A DNA stretch of 64,000 nt, taken from NCBI RefSeq assembly GCF_902506575.1, contig NZ_LR732544.1, positions 2,617,862-2,681,861 on the forward strand, read 5' to 3'. The notes under the pieces are model-generated. The model made no database searches. It was not told where the DNA came from and saw only the letters and a list, made by a program, of their open reading frames with translations. Below are positions 1 through 35,490 of the stretch, one piece after another (the first letter of the stretch is position 1; each line of letters opens with the position of its first letter). A program made the position numbers and the translations under genes. Origin of the DNA: Streptomyces mexicanus (lineage in GTDB: Bacteria; Actinomycetota; Actinomycetes; Streptomycetales; Streptomycetaceae).

Positions 1-119
1 AACGTAGGACAACAGAGTGAGGAAACCTACGGGGAGATGTGGGCAGGAGTGGAAGTCATTTTTATAATGCGGCAACAACTGCCGCCTATCCACCCCCGAA
101 GGGGGTGGCGGGCGGCGTG
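1..119. other. contig-edge sequence of doubtful origin
   Basis: This stretch precedes a near-copy of the Nextera mosaic end. Its first about 80 bases are visibly less GC-rich than the rest of the window. It contains a hairpin (CCACCCC and GGGGTGG around a short spacer) at about 90-109. I see no gene in it. It may be read-end or adaptor-derived noise, not the native upstream sequence of the first gene. Confidence 0.5.
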
Positions 120-138
120 AGGTGTGTATACGAGACAG
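120..138 (+). other. Nextera mosaic-end-like adaptor remnant
   Basis: The 19 bases AGGTGTGTATACGAGACAG match the Nextera transposon mosaic end at 17 of 19 positions. Read in frame from 122 the sequence gives MCIRDS, a peptide typical of adaptor contamination. The native sequence therefore probably begins at 139, inside the following gene. Confidence 0.8.
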
Positions 139-31260: not shown

Positions 31261-31370
31261 ATGCGCAAGGTCAACAACTTCGCGATAGCGGCCGTCAGCA
31301 CGGTCGCCCTCGGCTCCGGTGCCTGGCTGCTGCACGGCGCCGGCATCACCCACGCCCCGCCCCAGCCCAG
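31261..31370 (+). pseudogene. class F sortase, truncated by assembly junction
   Basis: Only the first about 37 codons remain: a cytoplasmic MRKVNNF start, one membrane anchor (AIAAVSTVALGSGAWLLHGA) and the beginning of a proline-rich stem (THAPPQP). This N-terminus and its place after a secreted anchored protein match class F sortases of Streptomyces. The codon pattern collapses at about 31370, where non-native sequence begins and leads into a sequencing adaptor. The truncation is therefore almost certainly technical, not a natural pseudogene. No catalytic Cys or Arg region is present in the window. Confidence 0.7.
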
Positions 31371-31535
31371 AAGGAGGTTGCAGAGCCATAATGTCAATAG
31401 GGGTGGGAGAAGTAGTCAGTTGGCGAGAAAGCTCAGGGTAAGGAGGAGGCGGAGGAGTAGAAATGTGTTTGAGATGGGAGCAACGGGAACCATAACGAGG
31501 ATCATCTTGATTAAGCTAATTAGTTTTTTTTTTTG
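31371..31535. other. low-GC noise next to adaptor, not genomic
   Basis: This stretch is purine-rich and far lower in GC than any native part of the window. It ends in an 11-base run of T immediately before Illumina P5-like sequence. It reads like low-quality read tail or chimeric extension. I see no gene in it. Confidence 0.8.
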
Positions 31536-31599
31536 GACGATCCGGCATCCACGGAGATCTACACGTAAGGAGTCGTCGGCAGCGTCAGATGTGTATAAG
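31536..31599 (+). other. Illumina Nextera P5-index-read1 adaptor
   Basis: In order: a degraded P5 end (31536-31564, 23 of 29 positions matching; exact from GAGATCTACAC), GTAAGGAG (31565-31572, Nextera i5 index S505), TCGTCGGCAGCGTC (31573-31586, read-1 primer site) and AGATGTGTATAAG (31587-31599, first 13 bases of the mosaic end). This is vector/adaptor sequence inside the contig, so the sequences left and right of it need not be adjacent in the genome. Confidence 0.97.
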
Positions 31600-31612
31600 G
31601 GCCGGGCCGTGT

Positions 31613-32833
31613 ATGACCTCGAACGCGCGTGTGGTGGTGATCGGCGCCGGCCTGGCGGGGGTGACCCTCGCCCGGCGGCTCGGTGAGCTGGGCACGCCCG
31701 CGCTGGTCGTCGGCGAGGAGGAGCACCGGCCGTACAACCGGGTGCTGCTCGCCGAGGTGCTGGCCGGCCGGTACGGGCCGGACGTGATCGCGCTGCCGGA
31801 GCCCGCCGGGCTGGTCCGGGGCCGGGTGACCGGCATCGACCGGGCCAGGCGCACCGTGCACTGCGCGGACGGCAGGTCGATCGGCTACGGCACGCTCGTG
31901 CTGGCCACCGGCTCCAATCCGGTGCTGCCCCCGCTGCGGGGCCTGTTCACCACCGGCGGTGAGCTGCCGGAGGGCGTCCACGCCTTCCGCACCCGGGACG
32001 ACTGCCGGAGGCTGTCCGCGGCCGTACGGCCTGGCGTGCAGGCGGTCGTCGTCGGCGGCGGGCTGCTCGGCGTGTCCGCCGCCCGTGCCCTGGCCGTGCG
32101 CGGCGCCCGGGTGGTCCTCGCCCAGCAGGCCGAACGGCTCATGGAGCGCCAGCTCGACCCGGGCGCGTCCGCCCTGGTCGAGCGGCATCTGACCGGGCTG
32201 GGCGTCGAGGTGCACACCGAGTGCCGGGTGCGGGACGTGCGCTGCGTGGGCGGCGCGGTCAGGTCGGTGGAGCTGGCGGACGGGTACGCGCTCGACGCCG
32301 AGCTGGTCGTGCCGGCCTGCGGGGTGCGCCCGCGTACCCGGCTCGCCGAGGACGCGGGGCTCGCCGTCGACCGGGGCGTCCTCGTGGACGACGAGCTGCG
32401 CACCTCCGACCCGCACATCCACGCCGTGGGCGACTGCGCCCAGCACGGCGGCACGGTGTACGGCCTGGCCGCCCCCGCCCTGGAACAGGCCGGCGTCCTC
32501 GCCGAACTGCTCGCCGGCAAGGACACCGCCCGCTACACCGGCACCCGTTCCCTGACCCGCCTGACCCTCACCGGTCCGGCGCCCGCCGGCCTGGACCTCG
32601 CCGCGTTCGGCGAGACCGTCCCGCTGCCCGGTGACGACGTCGTCCAGCTCGCCGACGCCACCCGCGGCACCTACCGCAAGGTCGTCGTACGCGACGACCG
32701 CCTGGTCGGCGGGGTCCTCGTCGGCGAACTCGGCACCGTCGGCGCGCTCGCCCGCGCCTGGGAGGGAGCAGAGCCGCTCCCGACGGACGGCGGCCCCCTG
32801 CTCCACCTGCTCACCAACGACGGAGGCTCCTGA
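31613..32833 (+). CDS. NirB-like FAD/NAD(P) reductase
   Basis: A 406-residue pyridine nucleotide-disulfide oxidoreductase resembling the FAD half of NirB: FAD motif VVVIGAGLAGVTLARRL (residues 6-22), PYNRVLLAEVLAG, LVLATGSNPVLPP, NAD motif VVVGGGLLGVSAARALA and HIHAVGDCAQHGG. It lacks the siroheme half. Its TGA overlaps the nirB ATG by one base, so it is an operon partner that may pass electrons to NirB. ATG 31613 gives a complete-looking N-terminus, but it is only 14 bp after adaptor sequence, so promoter and possible upstream codons are lost. Confidence 0.85.
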   Translation: MTSNARVVVIGAGLAGVTLARRLGELGTPALVVGEEEHRPYNRVLLAEVLAGRYGPDVIALPEPAGLVRGRVTGIDRARRTVHCADGRSIGYGTLVLATGSNPVLPPLRGLFTTGGELPEGVHAFRTRDDCRRLSAAVRPGVQAVVVGGGLLGVSAARALAVRGARVVLAQQAERLMERQLDPGASALVERHLTGLGVEVHTECRVRDVRCVGGAVRSVELADGYALDAELVVPACGVRPRTRLAEDAGLAVDRGVLVDDELRTSDPHIHAVGDCAQHGGTVYGLAAPALEQAGVLAELLAGKDTARYTGTRSLTRLTLTGPAPAGLDLAAFGETVPLPGDDVVQLADATRGTYRKVVVRDDRLVGGVLVGELGTVGALARAWEGAEPLPTDGGPLLHLLTNDGGS

Positions 32834-35490
32834 TGTCCACGGACACCCGCCCGGAGACCCACACGGACACCCGTCCGGACACCCCCACGGACACCCCCAC
32901 GATCGTGCTCGTCGGCCACGGCATGGTCGGCCAGCGCTTCCTCGAAGCGCTCGCCGGGCGCGGCCTGACCGCGACGCACCGCGTGGTGGTGCTGTGCGAG
33001 GAGCCGCGCCCCGCCTACGACCGCGTGCAGCTCACCTCCTACTTCTCCGGCCGGACCCCGGACGAACTGTCGCTGACGGACCCGCGGTTCATCGCGGACC
33101 ACGGGATCGAGCTGCACCTCGGTGATCCGGCCGAGGCGATCGACCGGGAGCGGCGCACGGTCACCGCCCGCTCCGGGCGGGTCTTCGGCTACGACGTCCT
33201 GGTGCTGGCCACCGGCTCCTCCCCCTTCGTGCCGCCGGTGCCCAACAAGGACGCCACCGGCTGCTTCGTCTACCGCACCATCGAGGACCTGCTCGCCATC
33301 GAGGAGTACGCGCGGACGAAGGCCACCACGGGCGCCGTGGTGGGCGGCGGGCTGCTCGGCCTGGAGGCCGCCGGCGCGCTCAAGGGCCTCGGCCTCGACA
33401 CGCACATCGTGGAGTTCGCGCCGCGGCTGATGCCGGTCCAGGTGGACGAGGGCGGTGGCGCGGCGCTGCTGCGCACCATCGAGGGCATGGGGCTGACCGT
33501 GCACACCGGCACGGGCACGCAGGAGATCGTCACCGGCGACGACGGCGCGGTGCGGGGCATGAAACTCTCCGACGGCTCCGAGATCGCCACCGACCTGGTG
33601 ATCTTCTCCGCCGGTGTGCGCCCCCGCGACCAGCTGGCCCGCGCCGCGGGCCTGGCGGTCGGCGAGCGCGGCGGGATCACGGTGGACGCGCAGTGCCGTA
33701 CGGTCACCGACCCGCACGTGTTCGCGATCGGCGAGTGCGCGCAGGCCGTGGACGGGCGGGTGTACGGGCTGGTGGCGCCCGGCTACGAACAGGCGGAGAC
33801 GGCCGCGGCCACCATCGCCGCGGACGAGGCGTCCTTCACCGGCGCCGACCTGTCCACCAAGCTGAAGCTGCTCGGTGTGGACGTGGCCTCCTTCGGCGAC
33901 GCGCACGGCACCACCGAGGACTGCCTGGACGTGGTGTACGCCGACTCGCGGTCCGGCCTGTACAAGAAACTGGTCGTCGGCCGGGACGGCACGCTGCTGG
34001 GCGGGATCCTGGTCGGGGACGCGGAGGCGTACGGCACGCTGCGCGCGCTGACCGGCTCGGTGCCGCCCGTCGCCCCCGAGGCGCTGGTCCTGCCCGCCGG
34101 CGCGGGCGCCCCGGCGCAGCTCGGTCCGGCCGCGCTGCCCGACGAGGCGGTGATCTGCTCCTGCCACAACGTCACCAAGGGCACGATCCGCGGCGCGGTC
34201 ACCGAGCACCGCTGCACCACCGTGCCGGAGGTGAAGCAGTGCACCCGGGCCGGCACCGGCTGCGGCTCCTGCGTGAAGGTGCTCACCCAGCTCGTCGAGG
34301 GCGAGCTGGAGGCGAACGGCGTCGAGGTGGACAAGGGCCTGTGCGGCTGCTTCGCGCAGACCCGCGAGGAGCTGTACGAGATCGTCCTCGCCCTGCGCAT
34401 CGCCTCCTACCAGGACCTGCTGGACCGCTACGGCCGCGAGGAGGCCCGGGGCGGCGACGGCTGCGAGGTCTGCAAACCGGCCGTGGCCTCGATCATCGCC
34501 TCGCTCGCCCCGGCGATCGGCGCGAGCGGGTACGTCCTGGACGGCGAGCAGGCCGCGCTGCAGGACACCAACGACCACTTCCTGGCCAACCTGCAGAAGA
34601 ACGGCTCGTACTCCGTCGTGCCGCGCATCCCGGGCGGTGAGATCGCGCCCGAGAAACTGATCGTGATCGGTGAGATCGCCCGGGACTTCGGGCTCTACAC
34701 GAAGATCACCGGCGGTCAGCGCATCGACATGTTCGGCGCCCGGGTCGAGCAGCTGCCGCTGATCTGGGCGCGGCTGGTGGACGCCGGCTTCGAGTCGGGG
34801 CACGCCTACGGCAAGTCGCTGCGCACGGTGAAGTCCTGCGTGGGCTCGACCTGGTGCCGCTACGGCGTGCAGGACTCGGTGCGCATGGCGATCGACCTGG
34901 AGCTGCGCTACCGGGGGCTGCGCTCCCCGCACAAGCTGAAGGCGGCCGTCTCCGGGTGCGCCCGGGAGTGCGCGGAGGCCCAGTCGAAGGACTTCGGCGT
35001 GATCGCCACCGCGAACGGCTGGAACCTGTACGTCGGCGGCAACGGCGGCGCCACCCCGCGCCACGCCGACCTGCTGGCGCAGGACCTGTCGGACGCCGAA
35101 CTGGTCCGTTTGATCGACCGGTTCCTGATGTTCTACATCCGCACCGCCGACCGGCTGGAGCGCACCAGCGTGTGGCTGGAGCGGATCCCCGGCGGCCTGG
35201 ACCACGTGCGCGACGTGGTGGTCCACGACTCCCTCGGCATCTGCGACGAGCTGGAGTCCCTGATGGCGGCGCACGTCGCGCACTACCGCGACGAGTGGGC
35301 GCAGACCGTGAACGACCCGGAGAAGCTGGCCCGGTTCGTGTCCTTCGTCAACGCCCCCGACACGCCCGACCCGGTGGTCGCCTTCGTCCCGGAGCGCGAC
35401 CAGATCAAGCCCGACCTGCCGCTGCTGGACATCGGCAGGCGGCGCACCGAGGAAGACGTCCTGGACCTGGAAGGAAGCGCCCAGCGATGA
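32833..35490 (+). CDS. nirB: nitrite reductase large subunit
   Basis: An 885-residue NADH-dependent siroheme nitrite reductase. Order of domains: FAD/NAD(P) reductase (TIVLVGHGMVGQRFLEAL; GAVVGGGLLGLEAAGAL), a BFD-type 2Fe-2S domain near residue 440-490 (ICSCHNVTKGTI and TGCGSCVKV), then the nitrite/sulfite reductase ferredoxin-like and 4Fe-4S/siroheme domains with SCVGSTWCRYGVQDS and AVSGCARECAEAQSKDFG, which supply the four cluster/siroheme cysteines. It reduces nitrite to ammonium in the cytoplasm. Length is a little above the usual 840-850 because of the Thr/Asp-rich N-terminal repeat (TDTRPETHTDTRPDT). It overlaps nirD by four bases. Confidence 0.95.
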   Translation: MSTDTRPETHTDTRPDTPTDTPTIVLVGHGMVGQRFLEALAGRGLTATHRVVVLCEEPRPAYDRVQLTSYFSGRTPDELSLTDPRFIADHGIELHLGDPAEAIDRERRTVTARSGRVFGYDVLVLATGSSPFVPPVPNKDATGCFVYRTIEDLLAIEEYARTKATTGAVVGGGLLGLEAAGALKGLGLDTHIVEFAPRLMPVQVDEGGGAALLRTIEGMGLTVHTGTGTQEIVTGDDGAVRGMKLSDGSEIATDLVIFSAGVRPRDQLARAAGLAVGERGGITVDAQCRTVTDPHVFAIGECAQAVDGRVYGLVAPGYEQAETAAATIAADEASFTGADLSTKLKLLGVDVASFGDAHGTTEDCLDVVYADSRSGLYKKLVVGRDGTLLGGILVGDAEAYGTLRALTGSVPPVAPEALVLPAGAGAPAQLGPAALPDEAVICSCHNVTKGTIRGAVTEHRCTTVPEVKQCTRAGTGCGSCVKVLTQLVEGELEANGVEVDKGLCGCFAQTREELYEIVLALRIASYQDLLDRYGREEARGGDGCEVCKPAVASIIASLAPAIGASGYVLDGEQAALQDTNDHFLANLQKNGSYSVVPRIPGGEIAPEKLIVIGEIARDFGLYTKITGGQRIDMFGARVEQLPLIWARLVDAGFESGHAYGKSLRTVKSCVGSTWCRYGVQDSVRMAIDLELRYRGLRSPHKLKAAVSGCARECAEAQSKDFGVIATANGWNLYVGGNGGATPRHADLLAQDLSDAELVRLIDRFLMFYIRTADRLERTSVWLERIPGGLDHVRDVVVHDSLGICDELESLMAAHVAHYRDEWAQTVNDPEKLARFVSFVNAPDTPDPVVAFVPERDQIKPDLPLLDIGRRRTEEDVLDLEGSAQR

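Follow-up and report, generated by a model that had tools for sequence, protein, structure and literature searches.

Nextera Read-Through Adaptor and phiX174 Control Signal at a False Join between a Sortase Gene and the nirB Region

Genes and Features of the Locus

The window, i.e., the whole stretch of 64,000 nucleotides analyzed here, is located in scaffold C17 (7,159,421 bases) of an assembly consisting of 159 contigs (genome G000). Within this window, a sortase gene fragment and an oxidoreductase gene are separated by approximately 240 bases of non-bacterial origin. The features considered are listed below with their window coordinates.

1..138, plus strand: second adaptor-like tail, located at the start of the window and containing a degraded mosaic end (120–138, 2/19 mismatches)
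31261..31367, plus strand: truncated 5' end of a sortase gene, comprising only some 36 codons for the N-terminal anchor part and interrupted by the join (tblastn and blastn)
31368..31523, minus strand: phage phiX174 gene F (Illumina PhiX control), running outward from the nir side (blastn and base-by-base register)
31524..31534, minus strand: A-run in read direction (T-run on the plus strand), directly past the fragment end
31536..31564, plus strand: P5 flow-cell end, 6/29 mismatches, five of the six being the in-register phiX base
31565..31572, plus strand: i5 index GTAAGGAG
31573..31586, plus strand: Nextera read-1 site TCGTCGGCAGCGTC, exact
31587..31605, plus strand: complete Tn5 mosaic end, 3/19 mismatches
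31613..32833, plus strand: intact gene for an FAD/NAD(P) oxidoreductase, directly preceding nirB (Pyr_redox_2; comparison with relatives)
32833..35490, plus strand: nirB, large subunit, flanking gene (open frame of 885 aa; NIR_SIR, NIR_SIR_ferr, Fer2_BFD and Pyr_redox_2)

The oxidoreductase shows 82–86% protein identity over 406 aa to its counterparts in six relatives. Only seven genomic bases (31606–31612) precede its ATG, and its upstream region is missing. The window itself begins inside an artefact, namely the adaptor-like tail at positions 1–138 (C17:2617862–2617999), which directly follows approximately 100 N outside the window and contains an i5 site with 5/14 mismatches.

Adaptor Remnant

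Read on the minus strand, the elements follow each other in the order genomic insert, mosaic end, read-1 site, i5 index, P5, A-run and tail, the four Nextera components being ordered and oriented as in a read leaving its insert. This is the order of a read running off a short fragment; hence, the tail is assigned to the nir flank, and the sortase flank represents a different contig end. The 27-base sequence TCGTCGGCAGCGTCAGATGTGTATAAG, comprising the read-1 site and the start of the mosaic end, was found exactly at 31573–31599 (chance expectation of 0.00 in 100 shuffles). The index corresponds to S505, and positions 31536–31564 were identified by comparison with the P5 oligo sequence. A scan for P5 at 3 mismatches yielded no match because this copy carries six.

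The sequence-only reading had placed an adaptor in correct order at 31536–31599. P5, index and the exact 27-base match bear out the order, but the mosaic end is not partial and continues to 31605. Moreover, the 14 bp proposed between the adaptor and the reductase start have to be corrected to 7 bp, with the mosaic end reaching 31605, the insert starting at 31606 and the ATG at 31613. Two open reading frames, one with an MCIRAG start (31589, plus strand) and the other with an LTLPTTPYV end (31559–32806, minus strand), are present at the adaptor. As had been anticipated, these protein ends are artefacts, because the corresponding codons consist of adaptor and index bases.

phiX174 Signal behind the Adaptor

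In a blastn comparison (162 of 50,697 phage records), 187 ungapped bases (31368–31554) matched phiX174 gene F with an identity of 82.9% (E 1e-47), the in-register match crossing the T-run and extending into P5 up to 31554. The 165 bases ahead of the adaptor had previously been considered low-GC noise. The low GC content was confirmed, values below 0.5 being restricted to windows at 31426–31600 (100-base windows, steps of 25), whereas the sequence is not noise but phiX174 gene F. Among the bases past the fragment end, 88/100 agree with phiX in one register, while the next best register reaches 45. When the register was set from the bases past the fragment end, the phiX base was found at five of the mismatched P5 positions (31553, 31548, 31547, 31542 and 31538) and not at the sixth (31536). 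The mosaic-end mismatches at 31600, 31602 and 31604 also differ from the phiX base and therefore need another cause, e.g., late-cycle miscalls.

Agreement of adaptor errors with phiX was also evaluated in a pooled test comprising 14 read ends at 13 phiX-bearing places, for which the register was fixed only from bases beyond the fragment end. Eleven of the 14 read ends showed an unambiguous register and were kept. Within these, the in-register phiX base accounts for 147 of the 185 informative adaptor errors, as would be expected for a mixed cluster, whereas 400 random registers gave 45.7 on average and at most 60. For the three read ends that were dropped, 25/27, 9/17 and 9/29 adaptor errors equal phiX. 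Furthermore, phiX positions other than A were called A in 43/80 cases within the ten cycles after the fragment end vs. 16/316 later (11 read ends). An earlier, looser count (166/205 adaptor errors equal to phiX at 12 of the 13 phiX-bearing places) took the register from alignments partly overlapping the adaptor and is superseded by the value of 147/185.

Recurrence in the Assembly and in Other Genomes of the Genus

An adaptor screen, which had been suggested as a check, detected the Nextera read-1 site, mosaic end and index in the assembly. The read-1 site with mosaic end was found 31 times, the mosaic end 58 times and the i7 side 13 times, and reversed control patterns gave 0 hits each. These hits merge to 61 adaptor-like places, 45 of them closer to i5 and 16 to i7; neighbouring adaptor copies at C17:1887532 and 1887621 were scored on one mosaic end and are both counted. 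An i5 or i7 site at no more than 3 mismatches is present in 48 of the 61 places, the tail at window positions 1–138 not being included due to the 5/14 mismatches in its i5 site. The i7 index TTCTGCCT is exact in 9/16 i7-type places and the i5 index of the window in 2/45 i5-type places (the window's own included), many of the other i5 indices being G-rich. N occur within 300 bases on the outer side of 26/61 places, mostly as runs of about 100. At the sortase/adaptor join no N is present, and the join is therefore not a plain padded scaffold gap. Some places carry two tails face to face, e.g., C17:5012508–5012851.

Matches to phiX were obtained at 11 places of the assembly, ranging from 35 bases (C17:3602254–3602288, the weakest match) to 1,172 bases at 97% identity. 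The longest piece (C17:1217268–1218439) lies inside the main scaffold and ends at a read-through i5 adaptor (C17:1218449). Only 13 places among the adaptor loci retrieved contained phiX; hence, for the majority of the 61 places, the tail is either without explanation or truncated by N. In relatives, phiX is absent from the same place, as a search of 35 loci, which overlap in part (180,258 bases), gave no match at E 1e-4.

Within the genus, the read-1 site with mosaic end (at most 3 mismatches) was found in 31/392 genomes, G000 included (30/391 others), with 22 Nextera matches in G012 and 63 in G137. Among these 31 genomes, to which the phiX search was confined, phiX matches occurred only in G000 and G137. 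In G137, representing a second species, phiX is present in four places; three of these pieces adjoin an i5 adaptor (3/33, 7/33 and 8/33 mismatches, respectively), and no i5 adaptor was found beside the fourth. The phiX pieces directly behind read-through adaptors (L159, L160, L161) are situated in two long contigs and near one contig end. G012 is represented by a single contig of 9.0 Mb (C1), in which the match to the reductase relative is split into three pieces; the completeness of this genome looks doubtful.

Sortase Fragment and Sequence Removed by the Join

The sortase fragment was compared with the reductase-side sortases of six relatives and shows, e.g., 67% identity over 36 aa to its counterpart in G013 (tblastn); its DNA alignments to relatives end at 31367–31368 (blastn). 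The gene, labelled class F in the sequence-only reading, had been described as intact to about 31370 and then lost. The loss holds, and the cut follows approximately codon 36, the alignment of the relatives covering 31261–31367. Together with its false in-frame continuation, the fragment gave no Pfam match at E 0.001, i.e., it lacks the sortase domain PF04203 that spans residues 64–203 of the G013 counterpart.

Ahead of the reductase gene, 6/6 relatives have kept a sortase domain, and the reductase-side sortase of G013 is 72–77% identical to its counterparts in the five others. The gene preceding the sortase is likewise common to the five relatives whose fetched stretch extends that far. Measured from the end of the alignable sortase N-terminus, which corresponds to the cut point, to the reductase ATG, the distance amounts to about 0.67 kb in G013, 2.0 kb in G020, 2.5 kb in G016, 2.9 kb in G009, 3.6 kb in G022 and 6.6 kb in G007. 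As judged from reading translations, the intervals of G020, G016 and G009 contain ORFs resembling an HxlR-type regulator and an NAD-binding reductase, accompanied by a TauE-like permease in G009 and a DUF1801-like ORF in G016; in G013, the sortase alone occupies the interval. The interval content differs among close relatives (L047, L048, L050, L051), from nothing to several genes.

A comparison with relatives, also suggested beforehand, revealed a sortase domain adjacent to the reductase as well as conserved sequence immediately preceding the reductase ATG, the latter being absent at this locus. The sequence-only reading had proposed a false join with loss of the catalytic part of the sortase and of the nir upstream region; this is supported by the adaptor anatomy, the six relatives and the 61 adaptor-like places. 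It had also left the number of missing genes unknown, and the corresponding interval of about 0.67–6.6 kb in the six relatives now gives an indication of the extent of the loss.

No ortholog of the missing sortase domain was found elsewhere in the assembly when the six sortase domains present there were compared with the G013 protein. Four of the six match this protein, at 57, 54, 48 and 39%, and the sortase pair at C17:4000751–4001971 gave no hit to it. The unplaced contig C86 was rejected as the missing half, since it encodes its own complete sortase, which groups with another locus of the relatives (72–73%). Contig C101 (L116, G000:C101:1–680), likewise unplaced, carries a headless sortase gene, preceded by an i7/P7 adaptor and a phiX piece (1601–1675). 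It was also rejected, this sortase being nearer to a different group (57–60%) than to the reductase-side one (48–52%). The phiX piece of C101 starts at phiX position 1601, where that of the window ends. A link between the two contigs was considered. As the two pieces share their direction and have the gene on the same side, they cannot be two halves of one read; the coincidence is probably due to chance.

Interpretation of the Join

Based on the adaptor order, the phiX identity and register, the recurrence in the assembly and the intact neighbourhood in relatives, the stretch of about 240 bases is interpreted as a sequencing and assembly artefact, composed of a Nextera read-through adaptor and phiX signal at a false join (probability of approximately 0.98). 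It has no biological function. In the proposed course of events, a short Nextera (Tn5) fragment ending 7 bp upstream of the oxidoreductase ATG would have been sequenced outward from the nir side, the read passing the mosaic end, read-1 site, index and P5 and then continuing beyond the template end. The signal of the fragment would have faded, and a phiX control cluster in the same cycles would have taken over the base calls, surfacing as errors inside P5 and supplying all calls past the short A-run. Left untrimmed on the contig end, this tail would then have been joined directly to another contig whose end lies within the sortase gene. A phiX cluster overlapping or neighbouring that of the fragment would be the simplest physical cause of the mixed signal, and either assembly or scaffolding probably made the join.

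Read-through of the adaptor followed by random base-call noise only, without any phiX, would leave the adaptor part identical, and both the phiX identity of 83% instead of 97% and the lack of detected phiX behind most of the 61 adaptor-like places would fit such a course. However, the phiX match at E 1e-47 over 187 ungapped bases already refutes it, and the single register shared by 88/100 bases past the fragment end, with 45 for the next best, also speaks against pure noise, which is regarded as highly improbable. The contiguity of the sequence without N would be compatible with genuine DNA, i.e., a chimeric library fragment or a real genomic insertion joining phiX to the adaptor and the sortase gene. 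A ligation product, however, would not keep phiX in register across P5 and around an A-run located exactly at the fragment end. Furthermore, the pattern recurs elsewhere with different phiX segments, and the six relatives retain the sortase domain; the probability of a genuine DNA molecule is considered negligible.

The artefact could also be the same without its flanks being chromosomal neighbours, two distant regions having been scaffolded together, as the tail says nothing about what lies beyond it. Against this, six relatives carry the same sortase about 0.67–6.6 kb ahead of the reductase gene and in the same orientation, and the gene before it is also shared by the five relatives whose fetched sequence extends far enough. 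Distant flanks therefore appear unlikely.

For the mixed adaptor and phiX artefact favoured here, consequences concern data quality only. False annotations at the join comprise the truncated sortase, the MCIRAG and LTLPTTPYV ORF ends and the absent nir upstream region. In view of the 61 adaptor-like places, the 7.16 Mb scaffold needs care in claims on gene order or gene absence. The in-register phiX pattern represents a simple diagnostic for this type of read-through/phiX error.

Comparison with Known Contamination

Untrimmed Nextera read-through adaptor is common in assemblies. The case described here resembles usual read-through in that mosaic end, read-1 site and index were left in contigs, often near contig ends. 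It differs from it in that most tails lie inside one 7.16 Mb scaffold, with contigs joined across them with or without N.

Short, error-rich phiX pieces behind read-through adaptors inside contigs are present in G000 and were seen again in the second species, G137. It is rather likely, albeit far from certain, that public Nextera genomes carry such cryptic PhiX contamination more generally. If so, screens requiring near-complete phiX contigs would miss embedded pieces, and false gene ends and misjoins would enter databases as biology.

PhiX contamination of isolate genomes has been documented for more than 1000 of more than 18,000 genomes (Mukherjee et al. 2015, PMC4511556). In that screen, hits of >90% identity making up at least 80% of a contig were considered, and 1216 of 1230 scaffolds were wholly phiX. 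As in the cases described there, phiX174 sequence remained in a deposited isolate genome; unlike them, the pieces reported here are short and error-rich, follow an adaptor and are mostly situated inside the 7.16 Mb scaffold. With its identity of 83%, the phiX piece of the window would pass neither of the two rules of that screen.
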